Virus record (IMG/VR): IMGVR_UViG_3300020190_000107
Span: 1 to 44,885 of that record
From: a virus
Length of the DNA stretch: 44,885 bases
Direction: 5' to 3' (one strand)
The notes under the pieces were generated by a model. It worked only from the letters and a program-made list of their open reading frames with translations. It was not told where the DNA came from and searched no databases. A program made the position numbers and the translations under genes. This document shows positions 85-44,013 of this stretch, in pieces. Numbering within the stretch: position 1 is the stretch's first letter; each line of letters begins with the position of its first letter.

Positions 85-282
85 ATGAAAAACAAACAAG
101 CAGACAAGCTACGCGAAATCATCAAAAAGATTGAAAAATCAGCGAGAAAATTTGACCTTGGAGCAGGTCACTTGGGTAACGGTGTCACGGTGTGGAACCG
201 TGCAAGAGAAGTCGACGGAGACTACGAAAAAATCGCACACATCGGTCCAGATCGAAAAATTACATGGTGGATTAATATCTAA
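85..282 (+). CDS. small cargo-cluster protein, module-bearing
   Basis: This encodes about 65 aa. I chose ATG 85 because a GGTGGG-type ribosome-binding site lies just upstream and because a TTG at 37 would overlap the preceding reading frame. The N-terminus MKNKQADK is encoded by 40 bp (68-107) repeated exactly at 41020-41059, in front of a different protein. It is followed by a basic amphipathic stretch, LREIIKKIEKSARK, that resembles the LExR module of neighbouring genes. The C-terminal half (VWNRAREVDGDYEKIAHI, then WW) looks like a compact beta domain seen in small phage and plasmid proteins. Its function is unknown. I infer that it is a virion-packaged small protein, from the shared module and the neighbourhood only. 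Confidence 0.7.
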   Translation: MKNKQADKLREIIKKIEKSARKFDLGAGHLGNGVTVWNRAREVDGDYEKIAHIGPDRKITWWINI

Positions 283-325: not shown

Positions 326-1189
326 ATGAAGATTTCAAAAATTCTGAACTCAAAAATTCTGAACGCAGGGTCAGTCGATTACGATGAATACATCAAAGCT
401 CACCCTAAGTCTAAAAAACAGCGTAACGACCCTATTTTTAAAAGCGATAAACAAGAATCAAAAGCGGCTCCTGCATCTGCGAAACCTGCATCCCCCTCTG
501 CACCAGCGTGGCACAAAAAGAATCCTAACCTACATCCGACATCAGTAAAGGGTGTAGGGAAAGCCTTGGATCTTTTGAACAAGCATAAAGGTGAGTGGGT
601 TCCAACCATCGAAAAATCTTTAGCAGATTTCAAAAAAGGAAAAATCACAAGAGAACAGTTCGCTGATGTGTGCGAAGATGAAAATTATCACTCGATTGCA
701 GCCTTGCTTCGATCCGACAAGGATACTGATGTTCATGTAATTCACCACACAGAACAACTACTCCATGATAGAGATCCGATGGATTCCTACGATGGTGAAG
801 TTAATGAAGCTAATAGTGCGAGTTATGAAGCAACAAGCGCAGCGGCAAAACATAAAAACCATAGTTCATACGACAAGCAGAGGCATCTAGGTGCGTTGAA
901 TTATTTACAGCACCACAATTTACTAGACAGCGATACAGGAAAACGTCTCCTAAGTTTAGTTGAAGCAGACACAAATGCGAGCCGCTTTCGTGGTGAACAA
1001 AGAGAATCTTACAGAGGTATTTACCAAAAAATGATGGAAAATTGGGAAAAACAGTTGAAGGAAGATAAGAAAGAGCTCTCCTATACATCGAAGACTCGTA
1101 GCCTTGAAGATAAGATGTTTGATTACAATGAAAGTTTGAAATCTAAAAAAATGTACGATGAACTCGGTAAGAAACTAGGTCTTGTCTAA
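326..1189 (+). CDS. cargo-cluster protein with AHPKSKK module
   Basis: The protein is about 287 aa. ATG 326 is preferred over TTG 314 because GGAT lies 7 nt upstream and because the paralogue at 41.6 kb aligns from this Met. The N-terminal module runs through SKILN, GSVDYDEYIKAHP and NDPIF (to about residue 40). It is nearly identical at DNA level to 41695-41810, with two synonymous differences noticed. A 15-bp tandem duplication (335-349 and 350-364) doubles SKILN here. A Pro/Ala-rich linker follows, then a helical, charged body. The C-terminal part (HLGALNYLQHHNLLDS and YDELGKKLGLV) is clearly paralogous to the 250-aa protein at 41610. The function is unknown. It may be a structural or packaged protein. 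Confidence 0.8.
   Translation: MKISKILNSKILNAGSVDYDEYIKAHPKSKKQRNDPIFKSDKQESKAAPASAKPASPSAPAWHKKNPNLHPTSVKGVGKALDLLNKHKGEWVPTIEKSLADFKKGKITREQFADVCEDENYHSIAALLRSDKDTDVHVIHHTEQLLHDRDPMDSYDGEVNEANSASYEATSAAAKHKNHSSYDKQRHLGALNYLQHHNLLDSDTGKRLLSLVEADTNASRFRGEQRESYRGIYQKMMENWEKQLKEDKKELSYTSKTRSLEDKMFDYNESLKSKKMYDELGKKLGLV
327..457 (+). repeat. module repeat, copy 1 (partner 41695-41810)
   Basis: This 131-bp stretch (116 bp plus the 15-bp duplication) matches 41695-41810 almost perfectly. The differences I see, in GATGAATAC versus GACGAATAT, are synonymous. The downstream gene bodies have diverged strongly, so the 5' module has been copied or homogenised separately from the rest. Confidence 0.9.
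335..364 (+). repeat. 15-bp in-frame tandem duplication
   Basis: TCAAAAATTCTGAAC occurs twice head to tail and adds five residues (SKILN) to the N-terminal module. The copy at 41.7 kb has only one unit, so this looks like a recent slippage duplication. Confidence 0.9.
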
Positions 1190-1251: not shown

Positions 1252-1593
1252 ATGAAGGTCATGGAAGATATCGAGCGGCTTGAAAAAAGAGCAGCCGCTA
1301 AAAATTACCTGAACATTCCATTTTCAAAAAAAGAGAAAGCAAAAGAACTTGGAGTCGGGAAAAAAGTCTACCTCGATGTGCCATTCAACAAAAAAGATGA
1401 AGCGAAAAAACACGGAGCGAGATGGGACTCGATCGTGAAAAAATGGTATTGGGGTGGAGGCGAAGAAAACCTTCCAAAAGAATTAAAGGCATTTCACCCT
1501 AAACATTTAAGAGAAAGACAAGAAGCTGAGATCGATGCTTTAGAAGAGCGTATGTCTCAAGAATCTTTCATGTCCGGTGAACCGAATTGGTGA
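1252..1593 (+). CDS. DUF5710-like protein with N-terminal LEKRAA module
   Basis: The protein is 113 aa, starting at an ATG with AAGGGA upstream. Residues 1-15 carry the cluster module (VMEDIERLEKRAA). Residues 18-75 match the DUF5710 pattern: YLNIPF-KKEKAK, then YLDVPFNKKDEAKKHGARWD and KKWYW. The first half of the motif is therefore present twice. DUF5710 is a small domain often found in DNA-processing or mobile-element proteins, and its activity is unknown. The C-terminus is a charged helix. The module ends in L-E-K-R, compatible with cleavage after Glu by a prohead protease of T4 gp21 type, but that is inference. The next gene starts 10 nt after its stop. Confidence 0.8.
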   Translation: MKVMEDIERLEKRAAAKNYLNIPFSKKEKAKELGVGKKVYLDVPFNKKDEAKKHGARWDSIVKKWYWGGGEENLPKELKAFHPKHLRERQEAEIDALEERMSQESFMSGEPNW

Positions 1594-1603
1594 GAGGTAA
1601 TAC

Positions 1604-2329
1604 ATGAGCATCTTAGAGACCATCGAAGGTTTAGAAAAAAGAGCCGCTGAAAACGAACCCACTAATCCAAAACTTTGGGCAAAGGTTCAGAAACTTACCA
1701 AAGGGGAAGTCGGATCTATCACACACAATGGAAAAACGGTCGATGGTCCGAACGATGGTAAAGGATTTAAAAAGTTTCCTAGCGCCTACGCTAACGGGTG
1801 GGCAGCGAAGATTTACAAAGACCTCGGTGGTGGTTGGAAAAAGAAATCTCATTTGAAAACCGCAGGTGGCTCAACTTTCATGACCGTGGCTCACGGTTCA
1901 AACGCAAAAGATGCGTTCAAAAAAGCCCAACAGGATGCGATCTCCGAATACGAGATGGACACAGGTGAAAATTACGAGGGTTACTCTGGGTCTATCGCTG
2001 AAAAAAACCGCTTCATCATGATCGAAGTCCCTGAAGGAAAAGACCCTAAAAAATACGCAAATGAATTGCTAGATGAAGATGACAAGCGTATCTCAGATAA
2101 ATGGGGTCCCGCAGGTTGCATCAATCCACCAAAAGAAGTGATTAAATACGTTGAGAGTATAGCTAAAGGTCCAAATTTTAACGTGAGCACAACTCAAGAC
2201 GCGAAGGTTTTTGATAAAGAAGCTGCCGGACTCAAGTCTGAAAAATGGCTTGACCATAAATTTGAAAGTTCTTCGACGCAAACTCCTGAATTTAAAGGAG
2301 TGAATAATGAAATCAAAGCAGTAGGGTGA
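1604..2329 (+). CDS. cargo-cluster protein with LEKRAA module
   Basis: The protein is 241 aa, with GAGAGGT before the ATG. The N-terminus ILETIEGLEKRAA is the same module as in the gene before it. Residues 24-85 contain a basic domain ending in NGWAAKIYKDLGGGWKKK, which resembles a short motif of large-phage proteins. Residues 90-185 (TFMTVAHGSNAKDAFKKA, then GYSGSIAEKNRF) form a second conserved phage-type domain of unknown function. The C-terminus has LKSEKWLDHKF, matched by LKSEKWIDYKF in the gene at 42542. A decayed copy lacking about 100 bp lies at 42379-42504. The 3' end overlaps a terminator stem. Confidence 0.8.
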   Translation: MSILETIEGLEKRAAENEPTNPKLWAKVQKLTKGEVGSITHNGKTVDGPNDGKGFKKFPSAYANGWAAKIYKDLGGGWKKKSHLKTAGGSTFMTVAHGSNAKDAFKKAQQDAISEYEMDTGENYEGYSGSIAEKNRFIMIEVPEGKDPKKYANELLDEDDKRISDKWGPAGCINPPKEVIKYVESIAKGPNFNVSTTQDAKVFDKEAAGLKSEKWLDHKFESSSTQTPEFKGVNNEIKAVG

Positions 2330-2349: not shown

Positions 2350-2396
2350 GCTTTGAGTATGGCTGATTAGCCAGTTTATTTCACAAGGAAGTGGAA

Positions 2397-3587
2397 ATGA
2401 AAAAGTTAGTTGCTTTGTTATCCTTATGTTCACTCTCGGCTTTAGCTTCACCAAAATCGCGTTTCATCGTTACAGTTCCAGAAGGAAAAGTGACTGAAAA
2501 AATAGCACAGGTAAACTCAACTCTGGTCACCGAATCTGATGAAATTAAACCTGAAAAAGTTTTACCTTCTATTGATGCTTTTGTAGCAGAATTGTCGCCA
2601 TCTCAAATTGAGGCTCTCCGTAAATCAGGAGCCAAGATTACCCCTGATCGTGAAAGACACGTTCTCGGTTTTCCTGACAACCCCTTTTTTGATTTGGAAA
2701 GAAATCTTGATTTTACTTACGGTCTCGAAAACATTGGTGTGATCGAATTACGATCAGCTTATCCAGAAATTTTGGGTGAAAAGGTAGTCGTCGGGATTAT
2801 TGACTCAGGTATCGACCCTAACCACCCAGCCTTCGCTGGAAAAGAAATCGTTTTTAAAGATTTTACTGCGAGTAAAAAAACTCAACCCTATGATGACAAC
2901 GGTCACGGTACACACGTTGCAGGGACTATTTCTGGAATCGGCTTACCGAATTTTGGAATTGCACCAAAAGTGAAATTAGTAATCGCGAAGGTTTTCTCAG
3001 CGAGTGGAAGGGCAAACGATTCAACAATTTTGGCTGCGATGGAATGGGTTCAAACGCAAGGTGTGAGTGTGGTTAATAACTCGTGGGGTGGAGATCAGGA
3101 TAGTACGAATCCTGATGAACCCTATAACCAAATGGTCAAATCTTGGCTGTCAAAGAACATTTTTCCGAGTTTTGCAGCAGGTAACAGCGGACCTAAAGAG
3201 GGTACTGTGGGAATTCCAGGAGGGTATGTTGAATCTTTTGCAGTTGGGGCTGTGGATGACAAAGATAAACTCTCAGCATTCAGCAGCAAAGGTCCTATTG
3301 TTTGGAACGGTAAAAAGTATGAAAAACCTGAAATCTGCGCTCCGGGATCACGTGTGTACAGTAGTGTCCCAAATGGTAAATACTCATACTTCAGCGGTAC
3401 TAGCATGGCGACACCGCATGTGACCGGAGTCGTAGCCCTTCTCAAACAAGCGAACCCAAAAATTACCGTTTCGGAAATCCGAGAGGTGCTACAAGAAAGC
3501 GCGAAAAACATCGAACTAAAAACTAACGAATGTGGCTCAGGGCGACTTGATGCAAAGGCTGCGGTTGATAAGGTTCTCGGAAAGTGA
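2397..3587 (+). CDS. secreted subtilisin-like serine protease (S8)
   Basis: The protein is 396 aa from ATG 2397, with AAGGAAG 8 nt upstream. A GTG at 2391 is too close to that site. Residues 1-18 form a signal peptide (KKLVALLSLCSLSALA). Residues 22-85 look like an I9-type inhibitory propeptide. The catalytic triad is complete: Asp136 in GIIDSGID, His170 in NGHGTHVAG, and Ser336 in SGTSMATPHV. The oxyanion Asn263 lies in AAGNSGP. Size and order match bacterial extracellular subtilases, so it should be exported and mature by autoprocessing. Such a gene is unusual in a phage. It stands alone between two terminator-like hairpins and could be a host-derived accessory gene acting on the envelope or on competitors. 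Confidence 0.93.
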   Translation: MKKLVALLSLCSLSALASPKSRFIVTVPEGKVTEKIAQVNSTLVTESDEIKPEKVLPSIDAFVAELSPSQIEALRKSGAKITPDRERHVLGFPDNPFFDLERNLDFTYGLENIGVIELRSAYPEILGEKVVVGIIDSGIDPNHPAFAGKEIVFKDFTASKKTQPYDDNGHGTHVAGTISGIGLPNFGIAPKVKLVIAKVFSASGRANDSTILAAMEWVQTQGVSVVNNSWGGDQDSTNPDEPYNQMVKSWLSKNIFPSFAAGNSGPKEGTVGIPGGYVESFAVGAVDDKDKLSAFSSKGPIVWNGKKYEKPEICAPGSRVYSSVPNGKYSYFSGTSMATPHVTGVVALLKQANPKITVSEIREVLQESAKNIELKTNECGSGRLDAKAAVDKVLGK

Positions 3588-8562: not shown

Positions 8563-9609
8563 ATGGAACAAATGCAAAATCAAAAAGTACCCGCGAGCCC
8601 ACTTGCGAAAGACAGAAAGTTTCTTGTCCGAGGTTTAGACATCGGAACTGGAACAATTATTGCATCTTACTTAGATGAATTAAGCAACACTGTAAAAAGC
8701 AAGCGAGTACGGGATGCATTCGTTTCTCTAGCCGTTGAGCAGAAGCAAATGTTGAAATTGTCGAATATTTCTTACATCGAAGAAGGTGATCGGGTGATCA
8801 TCGTCAGCGATGATGCTGCAAATATCGCAAATATCTTCAATCAACCTCTTCGAAGACCTTTAAGCAAGGGGACTATTTCACCTTCGGAAATTGAAGCGCA
8901 AAAAGTAATCAAACATCTCTTCAGAGAAGTTCTCGGTGAGGCTTCTGTTCAAGGAAGTGTTTGTGTGTACTCGATTCCTGCAAACCCTCTCGATGCTGAT
9001 CAAGATGTCACTTTTCATGAAATGATCATGGGTCAGATGTTAGAATCTTTGGGTTGGAAAGCGGTTGCTGCGAACGAGGCACAAGCTATCGTATATTCAG
9101 AATGTGCAGACACGATGTTCAGCGGTTTCGCTATGAGCTTCGGGGCAGGTATGGTTAACTGCTCCCTGAGCTATAAGTCTCTTCCTTTGATCACGATGTC
9201 GGTTGCGCGCTCAGGGGATTATGTGGATGAACAATCCGCTAAAGCTACAGGACTCTCCCCTGCAAAAACATGCGCTATCAAAGAGAAAGGTGTGGACTTG
9301 CTTGCACCGAAAGGTCGCGAACAAGAGGCTATCGCGGTTTATTACAAAGCTCTTATCAAATACGCCCTCACAAATTTCATCGAAAAAATTAAATCTCAAA
9401 ACGTGATGGCTCAAATTGATCTACCAGATTCAATTCCGGTTGTAGTAGGCGGTGGTACATCATTACCTACAAACTTTTTGGCTGTCGTGAAAGAAGAAGT
9501 GAATCGATTAAAAGGGTTCCCTTTCTCCGTGACAGATATCCGACATGCCAAAGATCCTCTCTACGCTGTTTCGAGAGGTTTGTTGATCATGGCTCAAAAT
9601 CACGAGTGA
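8563..9609 (+). CDS. actin-like ATPase (MreB/ParM/PilM superfamily)
   Basis: The protein is 348 aa. Actin-fold signatures are visible in order: phosphate-1 GLDIGTG (residues 24-30), a connect-type CVYSIPANP, phosphate-2 region MSFGAGMVN (about 191-198) followed by SVARSGDYVDEQ, and adenosine motif VVVGGGTS (about 292-299). In phosphate-2 the usual acidic residue before the glycines is Ser192, so ATP hydrolysis could be weak or absent. Known phage actin homologues position DNA or the replication centre. Here the gene sits at the head of the virion block, between a coiled-coil protein and a neck protein, so a role in assembly or DNA positioning is possible but not shown. Confidence 0.85.
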   Translation: MEQMQNQKVPASPLAKDRKFLVRGLDIGTGTIIASYLDELSNTVKSKRVRDAFVSLAVEQKQMLKLSNISYIEEGDRVIIVSDDAANIANIFNQPLRRPLSKGTISPSEIEAQKVIKHLFREVLGEASVQGSVCVYSIPANPLDADQDVTFHEMIMGQMLESLGWKAVAANEAQAIVYSECADTMFSGFAMSFGAGMVNCSLSYKSLPLITMSVARSGDYVDEQSAKATGLSPAKTCAIKEKGVDLLAPKGREQEAIAVYYKALIKYALTNFIEKIKSQNVMAQIDLPDSIPVVVGGGTSLPTNFLAVVKEEVNRLKGFPFSVTDIRHAKDPLYAVSRGLLIMAQNHE

Positions 9610-11429: not shown

Positions 11430-14180
11430 ATGAGTATTTTCAGTACCTACGCGCCACCTGGTGTATATGTTCAAACTTTAAATGATGCGACTGCGGTTAA
11501 TATTGTCGCAGGTCTTCGTATGCCGTTGTTCATCGGTGTTGGACAAGAATATATCACTCTAAGCAATTTCGAAATCATCCGTGGTTCTTCTGCCACTTCA
11601 GATATTCGTATGCTTGGTGAAGATGTAAGTTCACAATTCACAGGAACAAATAGACAATTTAATGTTGCAAACTACCCAATCGTTGATGGTTCAGGTCGCG
11701 GATCTACTACTTTTGATCCTAATGCTTTGACCGTTACTATCGATGATCAACCTACAGGTGTTATCGCGGTTGATGGGTTAACTGGACTGGTTACTCTCGG
11801 TACAATTCCACCGATCGGTGCTGTTGTAAAAGTTAGCTATTTCTTTAGCCGTAAAGATTTGAAAATTTCCGATGAAGATTTGAGCTATCAAGCCGATGGT
11901 TCGAACACGAATTTCAAGGTGAATAAGACACCAATCGTGAGCGGTAACAATGGTGGTGCGATTACCACAACTCCATCTAATGTAATTGTAAAAGTTGATG
12001 GATTGACTGTACAAGTTTCAGCCGTCAACGGTATGGATGGGGTCATCACTCTTGCTTCAGCCCCCGCTGATGGTTCTGAAGTGTTGGTGACCTACTACAC
12101 GAACACATTCCAAGACACTTTTGACTACTTGCCTCAAGATGTAAATATCTTGAAAGTGAGTTCTGTCGGAAACAGTCCTGCGAAACAAGATTACTATCTT
12201 GGACAAGATTTCGTTGTACAAAGTGGAAAAATCTTGTGGGGCTCAGCGTACGACATTCGGAACGGTTCAGCCGTCACAGGAAACGCTTTTGGCTCTGAGC
12301 AGATCTCAGCGACTCTTGTCGACAATGTTTTCCACATGAGACAAGCCGTAGGAACATCAAACGGCTCAAACAAGAAATTCAAAATTCTTGAGACTCCAGT
12401 AGAAGGTGATGGTCGTGATGTTCCGACTGATGATGTTACAAAAGTTACAGTCTACGTTGGATCTAGTGTTAGTGCAGCTAAAGCTGCCGGTCCTGTAGAA
12501 ATCGTGGCTGTTAATGGTGTAGCTCAGGAAATCATTCTCAAAAATGCACCTGCTTCAGGTCAAAAAGTTTACGTCACGCAATATTACAACATCTTAACAG
12601 ATGATGTTTTTACGGTCACTAACCGTGTTACATCAACGGGTGTCGTTACAGGTGAATATGATGTTGTTAGCTCTAACGGCGGAGATTGTTTCGCTGCTGA
12701 ATTCTCAATTGCAGACTCAACTGTAGCCGCTCCTGCTTTTGCAACCGAGGGTGTTCCATTCCCTAATGAAATCGCTGATGCGGTTACTATTCCAGGGTAC
12801 AGCGTTGCAGAAGAAGTCACTTTAACTTTTACGAGCGCAACCGCTTACACCGTAAGTAGTAATTTGCTTTCAGGTGGTTCTTCTGGGACTGGATATTTGG
12901 ATCAAACGTACGTTGATGAAACGACAGGTCTTCGGTTCACTATTGTGACTCCAAGCTCCTTTAATTTCGTTGCAGGTGATACTCTTGTTTGCAACGTCAC
13001 TAAACAACAAGAAGTTGGTTCGGATGCTAAGAAAATCATTCCAGGTCTGAATATTGTGGTATCGAATACTACTGGAGTTTCTGTCGGATCAACAGCCCTT
13101 GTTGAAACATTTAACAAGTCTGGTGCAGAGCCTTCTATCGGTGATTCGTACTATGTTACGTTTGACTATGAGAAGACAAACTACAAGCCTACCGTTTACA
13201 CTAACTTCCGTGATGTATTAAACGATTTCGGACCTTTGAATCTTGAAAATCGAATTACTCTTGCTGCATATCTAGCATTCTTGCAAGGTACCCCTGCGAT
13301 TGCAATCGCACAGGTTAAGAAAGCTCCAAATCAGCTTCAAGCAAACGATGGTGCTTTCTTGCAAGCGATGTCAGCACTTGAAAATCCGTTAGATGGAAAT
13401 GTTCGTCCGAACATTTTGGTTCCGTTGACTACATCGGCTGTAGTGCTTCAGCAAGCTAAGAAACATTGTGAAAAAGTTTCTAGTGCTCGCTACGCTATGG
13501 AACGTACGTTGATTTTCGGTTTCGGAATCGGAACACTTCCAGAGACAGCTCAGGAATTTGCTAAAGGTCTTCGCTCTGAGCGTTGTCTCGGTGTATATCC
13601 TGATGGAGCCGTTGTCGCCCTAGAGGATGCTTTCGGTCGCGAAGTAGAGAATACCGTTGATGGTAGTTTCCTTGCTGCGGCGATGGCAGGGTTAGCTTGT
13701 AATCCTGTTTTTGATGTAGCTACGCCGTTGACACGTAAATCTTTAACAGGATTCCGTCGTTTGTTTAGAAAGCTAGATGCTGTACAACAAAATCAAACCG
13801 CTGTCGCAGGTTTGACTGTTTTGACAGAAAATCAAGCATCCATCCAAATCCGTCAAGCAATCACAACTGATCCTAGCAATGTTTTGACACGCGAACCTTC
13901 AGTGGTGTTCATCAAGGATGAAATTCAACAGTTGACTCGATCGATTCTCGATCCATTTATCGGTGAAAAATTCTTGGGAAGTCGTTTGACTGATATCGAA
14001 AGCGCGTTAGCGGCTATGTTCAAGGCTCAGATTCAGGCTCAAAAGATCACAGCTTTCACTGGAGTAAAAGCCACAGCAAGAGCGACGGATCCAACCGTTG
14101 CTGATGTTGTAGCTTTCTACAGTCCTGTGTTCCCTTTGAACTGGATTCAGGTCACCTATACTCTAAGAACTCAGCTCTAA
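11430..14180 (+). CDS. contractile tail sheath protein
   Basis: The protein is 916 aa, and GGGGG lies 8 nt before the ATG. The N-terminus YAPPGVYVQTL and the C-terminal domain (VLTREPSVVFIKDEI, then NWIQVTYTLRTQL) are classic for the sheath family. It is much longer than a typical sheath because of inserted beta-domains, of which three are clear at about residues 68-139, 152-224 and 308-388. Each has the pattern F-V-x-x-x-PI, V-x-V-D-G, G-x-I-T-L, P-x-G-x-x-V-x-V-x-Y. These probably decorate the tail surface. The sheath contracts to drive the tube through the host envelope. A strong terminator follows, giving a unit ending here. Confidence 0.95.
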   Translation: MSIFSTYAPPGVYVQTLNDATAVNIVAGLRMPLFIGVGQEYITLSNFEIIRGSSATSDIRMLGEDVSSQFTGTNRQFNVANYPIVDGSGRGSTTFDPNALTVTIDDQPTGVIAVDGLTGLVTLGTIPPIGAVVKVSYFFSRKDLKISDEDLSYQADGSNTNFKVNKTPIVSGNNGGAITTTPSNVIVKVDGLTVQVSAVNGMDGVITLASAPADGSEVLVTYYTNTFQDTFDYLPQDVNILKVSSVGNSPAKQDYYLGQDFVVQSGKILWGSAYDIRNGSAVTGNAFGSEQISATLVDNVFHMRQAVGTSNGSNKKFKILETPVEGDGRDVPTDDVTKVTVYVGSSVSAAKAAGPVEIVAVNGVAQEIILKNAPASGQKVYVTQYYNILTDDVFTVTNRVTSTGVVTGEYDVVSSNGGDCFAAEFSIADSTVAAPAFATEGVPFPNEIADAVTIPGYSVAEEVTLTFTSATAYTVSSNLLSGGSSGTGYLDQTYVDETTGLRFTIVTPSSFNFVAGDTLVCNVTKQQEVGSDAKKIIPGLNIVVSNTTGVSVGSTALVETFNKSGAEPSIGDSYYVTFDYEKTNYKPTVYTNFRDVLNDFGPLNLENRITLAAYLAFLQGTPAIAIAQVKKAPNQLQANDGAFLQAMSALENPLDGNVRPNILVPLTTSAVVLQQAKKHCEKVSSARYAMERTLIFGFGIGTLPETAQEFAKGLRSERCLGVYPDGAVVALEDAFGREVENTVDGSFLAAAMAGLACNPVFDVATPLTRKSLTGFRRLFRKLDAVQQNQTAVAGLTVLTENQASIQIRQAITTDPSNVLTREPSVVFIKDEIQQLTRSILDPFIGEKFLGSRLTDIESALAAMFKAQIQAQKITAFTGVKATARATDPTVADVVAFYSPVFPLNWIQVTYTLRTQL

Positions 14181-41438: not shown

Positions 41439-41522
41439 ATGAAATCTGCTAAAAACAAACGCGACAAAGGCTCAGAACACGGAGAAAACATGAAGATTTC
41501 AAAAATTCTGAAATCCTGTTAA
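41439..41522 (+). pseudogene. chimeric remnant of two neighbouring genes (27 codons)
   Basis: The first 44 bases repeat the start of the DUF5872-like gene exactly (42542-42585, MKSAKNKRDKGSEHG). From 41490 the next 23 bases repeat the start of the gene at 326 (MKISKIL). The frame then stops. The two 5' ends have been joined in frame and nothing of the bodies remains. No ribosome-binding site is seen. Confidence 0.75.
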
Positions 41523-41609: not shown

Positions 41610-42362
41610 ATGAGCGACTCAAAAAAAGATTACAAAGTTGGAGAAAGCATGATGTCGAAGTTATTGTCAGAACTAAGGAAAATTGAAGCGAGTTTGAAGA
41701 TTTCAAAAATTCTGAACGCAGGGTCAGTCGATTACGACGAATATATCAAAGCTCACCCTAAGTCTAAAAAACAGCGTAACGACCCTATTTTTAAAAGCGA
41801 TAAACAAGAAAATTCAGTCAAGGGCAAGCATACAGATGGTGATGTCATCGCTCATGCAGATAAAAGACTAGGTGAGATGAAATCAAATCTGACTCAAAAC
41901 TATGGTGGAGCATATTTGGTTGAGGGCACGGGCGATTTAAGCGAAAGAGCGAATCTTGAAGATGCGCGGTACGCGGTTACCAACTCAGCTAGAGAAAAAA
42001 AACTCGAAGCTGCCGGAGTTTCAATGAAGCACGATGACTTCGACAGAGAAAAGCATATCAGCGCGTTGAAATATTTGCATCACCACGGTTTGCATGACAG
42101 CCCTACAGCTAAACATCTTCAAGGTTTAGTTGATAAAAACAAAGATGAATATAAAAAAGTTTATAAATCGATCAGTGATAAAGCTCAAAAAGCCGTGGAT
42201 CGTGAAGAGAACGAACTTGTCAATTTCAAGGGGGGACACCAAAACCGATTCCGCCATTTGACTCAGAATTGGACTGAGAAAGACCAGTTGAATCACTATA
42301 AAGGTGTCCTGAAAGCAAAAGAAAACCACGATGCACTGGGTAAAAAATTAGGTTTGGCTTAA
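41610..42362 (+). CDS. cargo-cluster protein with LExR and AHPKSKK modules
   Basis: The protein is 250 aa with AAAGGGG before the ATG. Residues 13-28 carry the cluster module (MMSKLLSELRKIEASL). Residues 29-66 are the SKILN, GSVDYDEYIKAHP and NDPIF module, nearly identical in DNA to 327-457. The body is diverged but paralogous in its C-terminal half to the 287-aa protein (HISALKYLHHHGLHDS, end HDALGKKLGLA). It is charged and helical. This is the only gene carrying both modules side by side, which shows that they are separate units. The function is unknown. Confidence 0.8.
   Translation: MSDSKKDYKVGESMMSKLLSELRKIEASLKISKILNAGSVDYDEYIKAHPKSKKQRNDPIFKSDKQENSVKGKHTDGDVIAHADKRLGEMKSNLTQNYGGAYLVEGTGDLSERANLEDARYAVTNSAREKKLEAAGVSMKHDDFDREKHISALKYLHHHGLHDSPTAKHLQGLVDKNKDEYKKVYKSISDKAQKAVDREENELVNFKGGHQNRFRHLTQNWTEKDQLNHYKGVLKAKENHDALGKKLGLA
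41695..41810 (+). repeat. module repeat, copy 2 (partner 327-457)
   Basis: It is nearly identical to 327-457 apart from the 15-bp unit duplicated there and two synonymous changes. Identity ends abruptly at the CAAGAA codons. Confidence 0.9.
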
Positions 42363-42378
42363 AGAGTTAAAGGCATTT

Positions 42379-42504
42379 CAGAGACTATCGGAGCCGCTGA
42401 AAACGAACCCACTAATCCAAAACTTTGGGCAAAGATTCAGAAACTTACGATAGGCAGCGAAGATTTACAAAGACCTTGGTGGTGGTTGGAAAAAGAAATC
42501 TCAT
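42379..42504 (+). pseudogene. decayed copy of the 241-aa cargo gene
   Basis: GCCGCTGAAAACGAACCCAC and the following bases repeat 1643-1699 with one or two changes. Then about 100 bp are missing, and the match resumes with 1800-1851 (GGCAGCGAAGATTTACAAAG and on). The LEKR codons are also deleted. The fragment lies in the 179-nt gap between two intact genes and has no start or usable frame. Confidence 0.85.
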
Positions 42505-42541
42505 CTCCTACAACCGTCCCTTTCGAAATAAACGGTAGGTT

Positions 42542-42585
42542 ATGAAATCTGCTAAAAACAAACGCGACAAAGGCTCAGAACACGG
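42542..42585 (+). repeat. 44-bp repeat of a gene start (partner 41439-41482)
   Basis: The first 44 bases of the DUF5872-like gene are repeated exactly 1.1 kb upstream, where they head a chimeric remnant. Confidence 0.9.
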
Positions 42586-43429
42586 TGGATTAGACGCTTG
42601 GTTCAAAGGTCATGGGCAAGGGAAATCCAAAGCCAAAGGGAAAGCCCCTTACGGTGATTGGGTTGCTATTACACCTGTGAAAAATACCATCGAAAAAGAC
42701 AACGGTAAAAAGAAAACGTATGAAGCAGGGGACATCGTAGGTCCTTGCGGAATCTCAAAAGACCCTGAGTGGAAGGACATCACCGACAACGGTAACGACC
42801 CGCTCAAGTGTATGCCTCGACAGAAAGCGCATGACCTCAGTAAAGATGAACGCGCTGAACTCGCAAAAAACAAACGCAAAAAAGAAAAGTCTGAGCCTGA
42901 TTCCAAAAAACCAGTCAAGACTCCAACTTTCGGCGAGAAGGCAAAAGAAATCAAGAAGGGTAAAAGTATTTCGGTGTTAGCTGAAATCAGAAAAATTGAA
43001 GCGCGTTTGGAAAAAGAATCAGGCGTGCGAGTCGCTGGACTCAAGTCTGAAAAATGGATCGACTACAAATTTGATAAAGTGCGTTCCGCAGAAACGGATG
43101 AATGGAAACAATTTGCTAAAGACTTTTTTTCCGACATCAAAAAAGTATGCATCGGGTATGAACTTGTTGACACAAACATCTGGTCTGATTCTCTGAGTGG
43201 GCTATTAAAAAAAGATAATGTCTGGGATACATTTCATAACCAATATATGCATAAATACTTCTATTTTGAGATTTCCGATGTACGCGGTTCACACGGTGAG
43301 TGGTTCGGCAATATTATTGTTCGCACTGCAAAAGATGAAGATGACGTTTATGGCACCAGAGGTCGTGGTCATGGTAGGACAAGTCTCAAAAATTTGAAAG
43401 CTAAACTAGACCAGCTCCTTCCACTATAG
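42542..43429 (+). CDS. DUF5872-like domain fused to an LExR module and C-terminal domain
   Basis: The protein is 295 aa. Residues 1-135 match the DUF5872 pattern: GGLDAWFKGHGQGKS, GDWVAITPVKNT, GDIVGPCGISKDPEWKDIT, DPLKCMPRQKA, and RAELAKNKRKKEK. About 147-162 is the cluster module (SVLAEIRKIEARLEKESG), here internal rather than at the N-terminus. Residues 165-295 form a separate alpha/beta domain starting LKSEKWIDYKF, a segment shared with the 241-aa protein. If the module is a protease site, cleavage would release the C-terminal domain. The stop is the rare TAG. The DUF5872 function is unknown. Confidence 0.8.
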   Translation: MKSAKNKRDKGSEHGGLDAWFKGHGQGKSKAKGKAPYGDWVAITPVKNTIEKDNGKKKTYEAGDIVGPCGISKDPEWKDITDNGNDPLKCMPRQKAHDLSKDERAELAKNKRKKEKSEPDSKKPVKTPTFGEKAKEIKKGKSISVLAEIRKIEARLEKESGVRVAGLKSEKWIDYKFDKVRSAETDEWKQFAKDFFSDIKKVCIGYELVDTNIWSDSLSGLLKKDNVWDTFHNQYMHKYFYFEISDVRGSHGEWFGNIIVRTAKDEDDVYGTRGRGHGRTSLKNLKAKLDQLLPL

Positions 43430-43443
43430 AAAAGGGATCCGAC

Positions 43444-44013
43444 ATGAAAAAACTCTTAGCTGAAATAAAACACCTTGAACATAAGGTGGCACTCATGCAA
43501 CGCGGTGAGAAGAAAGAAACCTCAAACCTTCTACTCCATAGGTACTCACGCGGTCTACGAGTGACCGATCTCACCAACGCGGGTAAAAGAGGTAAAGAAG
43601 TCGACCAGTTTGTACTAGAAAGCGAAGAGTCGGATCTTTTTGACCAAATTGAAAAAGCCAAAGACTATGCTGAGGCTTTAAGTATCGCGAAAAAAACCAG
43701 TGATATTAAACAACTACACCAAGAAAAGTACAGGGGTATTGATGTCGCACCTGCGGGATTCAAGCCTATCTTACTCGAAGGCAAACAAGTCATCATCAAC
43801 TCAGACTATGACACCTTCAGTGTCAGAGACCGCTCTGATGTCAACGAGGAAACGTGCATCCCTGCTATCAAAGGTGGCAAAGCCGACATCAAGGTTTTCT
43901 ACCGATGGGTTTCCGATAACCAAGACAAAATCAAAAACATGACCTTCAATGATATCGTCGATGCCATGCGATCGATTGGCGTCAAGTACCACCGTTACTG
44001 CGCTTTGGATTGA
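43444..44013 (+). CDS. cargo-cluster protein with N-terminal LExK module
   Basis: The protein is 189 aa with AAAGGGA before the ATG. The N-terminus KKLLAEIKHLEHKVA is the cluster module. The middle is helical and charged. Residues 125-189 (SDVNEETCIPAIKGG, then FNDIVDAMRSIGVKYHRYCALD) form a compact C-terminal part with conserved-looking Cys, Tyr and His. No family is recognised. It is last in the cluster and ends at a hairpin. Confidence 0.8.
   Translation: MKKLLAEIKHLEHKVALMQRGEKKETSNLLLHRYSRGLRVTDLTNAGKRGKEVDQFVLESEESDLFDQIEKAKDYAEALSIAKKTSDIKQLHQEKYRGIDVAPAGFKPILLEGKQVIINSDYDTFSVRDRSDVNEETCIPAIKGGKADIKVFYRWVSDNQDKIKNMTFNDIVDAMRSIGVKYHRYCALD

Follow-up and report, generated by a model that had tools for sequence, protein, structure and literature searches.

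What is the short stretch that several small, otherwise different proteins of one phage genome fragment have in common? The fragment, IMG/VR virus record IMGVR_UViG_3300020190_000107 (44,885 bases, all of which is the window referred to below), codes for tail and accessory proteins of a large phage with a contractile tail. A sequence-only reading had noticed a module of the form two aliphatic residues, x, acidic, I, x, x, L/I, E, x, K/R in the proteins starting at 1252, 1604, 41610, 42542 and 43444 and, more weakly, at 85, and had proposed that it targets packaged cargo to the capsid. All six modules were found where that reading had placed them. The strict pattern is present in 1252, 42542 and 43444, whereas 1604 and 41610 deviate from it; three matches among the window proteins compare with an average of 0.02, and at most 1, after shuffling. 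A position matrix trained only on G007, a 356-kb IMG/VR contig closely related to the window, recovered all six, each scoring above at least 99.95% of the internal segments that served as the null (null fraction ≤0.0005 each). A position-specific scoring matrix built from five window modules alone gave a weaker, consistent signal (21 versus 5.7 expected). The shared module, hereafter the tag, is thus confirmed as real, and the observation extends much further than first noted.

The window belongs to the phage G-like huge phages. Its tail sheath matches those of Tunturi_5, LR745208, Bacillus phage G and the mycobacteriophages around Myrna, and the close IMG/VR relatives used were G003 (155 kb), G005 (78 kb) and G007. 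Identity to the capsid protein of G003 is 93% for G007, 74% for LR745208, 38% for phage G and, in other huge-phage contigs, mostly 73-76% (67% in one). In G007 the same tag as in the window, which we call class 1, lies on roughly 20-30 proteins, mostly at the N-terminus and once at the C-terminus; they include 342909, 342312, 111936, 112395, 89880, 167942, 120680 and 95411. An iterated search matched 31 of the 491 G007 N-termini, against 3.9 expected from shuffles at the same threshold, and the rate was 6.3% for N-termini versus 1.8% for internal segments. Some of the lower-scoring matches are simple coiled coils. A second G007 variant, LxKLxxLAxKIEKxS, heads further proteins. The class 1 matrix stayed near background in LR745208 and in another huge-phage genome, G010.

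Those two genomes, and phage G itself, carry other tags. The LR745208 tag LRSKLIRLAHENPALRPQLLPLLKEA (LRSKLIRLAHxNPxLRPxLLPLLK) is found on 11 unrelated proteins; in nearly all of them it sits at the N-terminus or close to it, and in one it is clearly internal. Its class is represented at 64 IMG/VR loci on many large contigs. RVAxRY is carried by about 11 G010 proteins and lies within the first 40 residues of 9, compared with 0.2% of internal segments, and MKRLIKK is carried by 16 proteins of the cultured phage G against 0.06 expected and by none in G007, G010 or LR745208, figures whose exact values are optimistic, the regular expressions having been picked after looking, although the excess is still very large. 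The tagged phage G genes include those at record positions 11937, 16055, 28218, 35181, 39023, 73330, 147651, 178671, 207449, 244460, 245985, 254625, 258975, 388147 and 446697. A short element thus recurs on several otherwise unrelated proteins of one phage, with strong N-terminal enrichment and a few internal and C-terminal exceptions. Each lineage examined has its own tag on many unrelated proteins. In a sampled 50 kb of Tunturi_5 we saw no clear repeated N-terminal tag.

The globular body of protein 43444 offers a view of one body behind different tags. Its family, with invariant features that include DL, AGKRGK, F152 and N159, occurs at 26 IMG/VR loci, and the tag in front of it differs by lineage: class 1 in the window and L070-L072; class 2 in L073, L077-L080 and L082-L084; class 3 in L089-L091, L093 and L095 and, less clearly, L094; and other N-terminal parts in L074-L076, L081 and L085-L088. 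A candidate for a fourth class, MRLSEINxYLG, stands only before this same body in its own contigs and is not established as a tag. On a tree of the major capsid protein, tag class changes four times, which is the minimum (mean 10.1 after shuffling, with 0 of 200 shuffles as low), and classes 1, 2 and 3 each fall on one side of a branch. Since the body gene may be inherited together with the phage, this family alone does not prove tag swapping; the argument draws its weight from the many unrelated proteins per phage that carry that phage's tag. An AlphaFold model of 43444 places a separate N-terminal helix at residues 2-13 (predicted local distance difference test score 64-68) ahead of a confident globular body, as would be expected for an exposed tag. 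The body had no fold match at E 0.001 in PDB or among viral models.

The bodies in the window had been described as unrelated, but not all of them are: 314 and 41610 are homologous, with a 108-bp stretch in common (98% identical) and further similarity at the C-terminus, and one domain, marked by AGLKSEKW, is found in both 1604 and 42542. Full copies of this domain occur in G003 and G007, in the latter directly behind the tag. In 42542 the internal tag sits between an N-terminal domain and the AGLKSEKW domain, and G007 58388, a homologue of the first part of 42542, has the tag at its C-terminus; this accounts for the internal tag of 42542, in which the AGLKSEKW domain has been added behind a C-terminal tag like that of G007 58388. 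Behind the tag of 41610 and of seven G007 proteins lies a second module, YxEYKKxHPxTKKTxxDPxF. G010 136272 (L206 19275-19721) has its own tag followed by the analogous KYLKEHPKADPNKHTVK / EKYLKEHPKADPNKHTVK, of which EKYLKEHPKADPNKHTVK is the apparent counterpart of the module in window proteins 314 and 41610. It is possible that this second module serves a separate function. An IMG/VR search for relatives of 41610 returned only a contig overlapping the window, and tblastn with 41610 and with the 988-residue protein 28019 found no matches in phage records.

What the tagged bodies are bears on what the tag does. In G007 they include two PARP catalytic domains (best 7e-24), RelA_SpoT (2e-15), DUF5661 and DUF3293 (3e-12), the last with a weak SAM-lyase match; behind class 2 tags stand ART-PolyVal, DUF2958, DUF7007, WGR and RelA_SpoT. 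Tagged phage G proteins comprise PARP (weak), ParB_N, nucleoside deoxyribosyltransferase-like, SLOG, GNAT and Lar restriction alleviation (weak) bodies, and HGT-type starts like those of ADP-ribosyltransferases (ARTs) are found in 4 of its 16 tagged proteins versus 2 of 624 others (p=4e-6). A published survey counted 10 or more ARTs in phage G and argued for the packaging and injection of ARTs in myoviruses (PMC9503650). By analogy, the tagged bodies fit packaged, injected effectors such as T4 Alt and IPI.

Among the accounts of the tag, two would deny it a specific destination. The tag might have no function as a peptide and belong instead to the 5′ part of a gene cassette (ribosome site, start and first codons) spread by recombination. 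The window ends do share many nearly identical fragments of 32-108 bp (41439-41515, 42391-42504, 350-457 and 41703-41810), which include gene starts, decayed or deleted-looking copies of tagged genes and some intergenic sequence; they look like a site of cassette turnover and recent fragment exchange. Comparison of tagged genes shows, however, that the protein sequence is preserved and third codon positions differ (37-50% identity); where an amino acid is identical, the codons coincide at about the expected rate in phage G (0.48 observed, 0.52 expected) and G007 (0.46 and 0.49), and somewhat above chance in LR745208 (0.45 and 0.31). The tag is conserved at the protein level, and codon use near expectation means that it is not simply a recent DNA repeat. 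As the tag also occurs internally and C-terminally, we regard the cassette account as highly improbable. The tag could instead be a generic helix for coiled-coil formation or oligomerisation that was recruited repeatedly, as the heptad-like spacing of class 1 tags and the coiled coils among the weaker G007 matches would suggest. Such a helix should be equally frequent at N-termini and internally in all genomes, whereas the G007 enrichment and the background levels in LR745208 and G010 show otherwise; nor would it explain RVAxRY and LRSKLIRLAH tags before a homologous body, MKRLIKK in phage G, or the distribution of tag classes on the capsid tree. A common helix, which would have undone the capsid-targeting proposal, is on these grounds very unlikely.

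An address is the alternative, and we consider it probable that the tag is a portable, lineage-specific one whose bearers are packed in the head and injected as early effectors. One tag per lineage, usually N-terminal and sometimes interdomain or C-terminal, marks about 10-30 unrelated accessory proteins; it would most likely bind a prohead partner, either the scaffold or core or the inner capsid face, so that its bearers are packed together with the DNA and, on infection, pass into the next host to act early. Binding to a prohead component is the simplest reading by analogy with T4 IPIII and P1 DarB. Several points weigh against it. Prohead binding, presence in the virion and injection are what we infer; T4-type tags are not usually internal or C-terminal; tagged G007 genes are spread over the genome and not limited to the head cluster; many tagged proteins have no recognisable domain; and the winged-helix, topoisomerase I and DnaJ protein bodies could equally act in infected cells. 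The tag might address a site in the infected cell, such as a replication compartment, the membrane, a pole or a cytoskeletal protein (for example the volactin encoded at 8563 in the window); this would produce the same pattern of lineage-specific tags across many accessory proteins, and intracellular sorting of proteins is known from some jumbo phages. The enrichment of injected-type effectors such as ARTs among the tagged proteins makes this unlikely. It is also decidedly unlikely that the tag is a T4-like propeptide cut by a prohead protease just behind the module Glu, as the sequence-only reading had it. Several class 1 tags do contain an L/I-x-E string (LLSE, VLAE, LLAE), and homologues of a prohead protease, for which that reading had proposed a search, exist in relatives: the head cluster of G003 encodes a match to head maturation protease family phrog_18299 (6e-11) besides a major head protein match (2e-52), and further protease homologues are found in G007, LR745208, G010 and, more weakly, phage G. 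Close relatives encode an HK97-type capsid protein; the window fragment itself contains no head genes, prohead protease included. Yet the phage G MKRLIKK and RVAxRY tags have no Glu and no L/I-x-E site at their end, and in many class 1 tags that string follows almost inevitably from the helix pattern, which leaves cleavage after Glu doubtful and unsupported as a general rule. Capsid targeting by a portable tag, with injected-effector-type bodies and both protease and capsid genes in relatives, is the best of the available interpretations, although unproven.

Whether the tag reflects something more general is evenly balanced in our judgement: phage G-like huge phages may run a cargo-addressing system comparable to secretory signals, in which each lineage has a tag code and a matching prohead receptor that change together, and captured genes become cargo by gaining the local tag.

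Table 1. Positions of the tags, modules, domains and repeats in the window
Feature	Position	Strand
Weaker tag-like stretch KQADKLREIIKKIEK, open frame 1-282 (listed as 85 by the sequence-only reading)	94..138	+
Second module YDEYIKAHPKSKKQRNDPIF in protein 314-1189	380..439	+
Class 1 tag KVMEDIERLEKRAAA, N-terminus of DUF5710 protein 1252-1593	1255..1299	+
Tag SILETIEGLEKRAAE, N-terminus of protein 1604-2329	1607..1651	+
AGLKSEKW domain, truncated copy ending protein 1604	2213-2326	
Exact 44-bp copy of the 42542 start joined to an MKISKILN start (repeats D2, D3)	41439..41515	+
Tag KLLSELRKIEASLKI, near N-terminus of protein 41610-42362	41658..41702	+
Second module YDEYIKAHPKSKKQRNDPIF behind the tag, protein 41610-42362	41733..41792	+
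Decayed, internally deleted copy of tagged gene 1604, intergenic (repeats D4, D5)	42391..42504	+
Internal tag SVLAEIRKIEARLEK (residues 144-158), protein 42542-43429	42971..43015	+
AGLKSEKW domain of protein 42542	43025..43426	+
Tag KLLAEIKHLEHKVAL, N-terminus of protein 43444-44013	43450..43494	+
Globular body of protein 43444	43495..44010	+

Other features of the window and its relatives are recorded here in their own right. The protein at 8563-9606, within the tail gene cluster, is an actin-like protein of the Volactin family (PF25216, 2e-65), and G005, G007 and LR745208 encode similar proteins at the corresponding position. Adjoining the tagged genes, 2391-3584 encodes a Subtilase (PF00082, 9e-61) with a signal-peptide-like start. 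In the head maturation protease homologue of G003 (L003 11633-13402) there is a long repeat of PPAEAPPAE, and its C-terminal extension is possibly a fused scaffold part. Beside the G003 protease and capsid genes, two adjoining proteins (L003 8582-9280 and 9309-9650) both hold TASYYTSKLDKIANEIR, a further repeated helix module. Pieces of the major capsid protein (residues 23-66 or 50-98, for instance) occur outside the capsid gene in other open frames of these huge phages (L176 1009-1986, L175 1132-1800).

Most huge-phage proteins have no assigned role. If the proposed function is correct, the tag would list injected effectors of host takeover and anti-defence from genome sequence alone, and the effectors delivered by the virion, at least ten proteins in each phage, would become predictable; it would also point to an assembly receptor and make it possible to fill very large capsids with proteins of choice. 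The idea of an address tag is directly testable, since phage G is in culture and has MKRLIKK on 16 proteins.

We found no description of tags of this kind in the literature searched, but several known systems resemble them in part. Encapsulin cargo-loading peptides are short and bring unrelated cargo into an HK97-fold shell, although they are not from phages and are usually C-terminal. The T4 capsid targeting sequence is present on IPI, IPII, IPIII and Alt, and the first 10 residues of IPIII suffice (PMC9026906). It and the gp21 protease resemble the present case in that several internal proteins, including an ADP-ribosyltransferase and an anti-restriction protein, are marked by a short N-terminal element. 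The phage G group differs in having at least 10 tagged proteins per phage, tags that vary by lineage, internal and C-terminal positions, and, in some lineages, tags without L/I-x-E. The giant phages SPN3US and phiKZ have many internal proteins and T4-like proteases (PMC5694885), but their ejection propeptides are mostly longer than 100 residues and belong to another phage group, whereas the tags here span about 6-30 residues. In P1, an N-terminal stretch of fewer than 30 residues directs DarB to the head (PMC9024508); this stretch is likewise short and N-terminal, but no consensus is reported for the P1 Dar N-termini, whereas here there is one per lineage. Polyvalent and MuF-fused effectors (PMC9503650) also bring ART and other effector domains that are thought to be packaged and injected; there the domains are joined to large virion proteins, whereas the short tags described here lie on individual small proteins.
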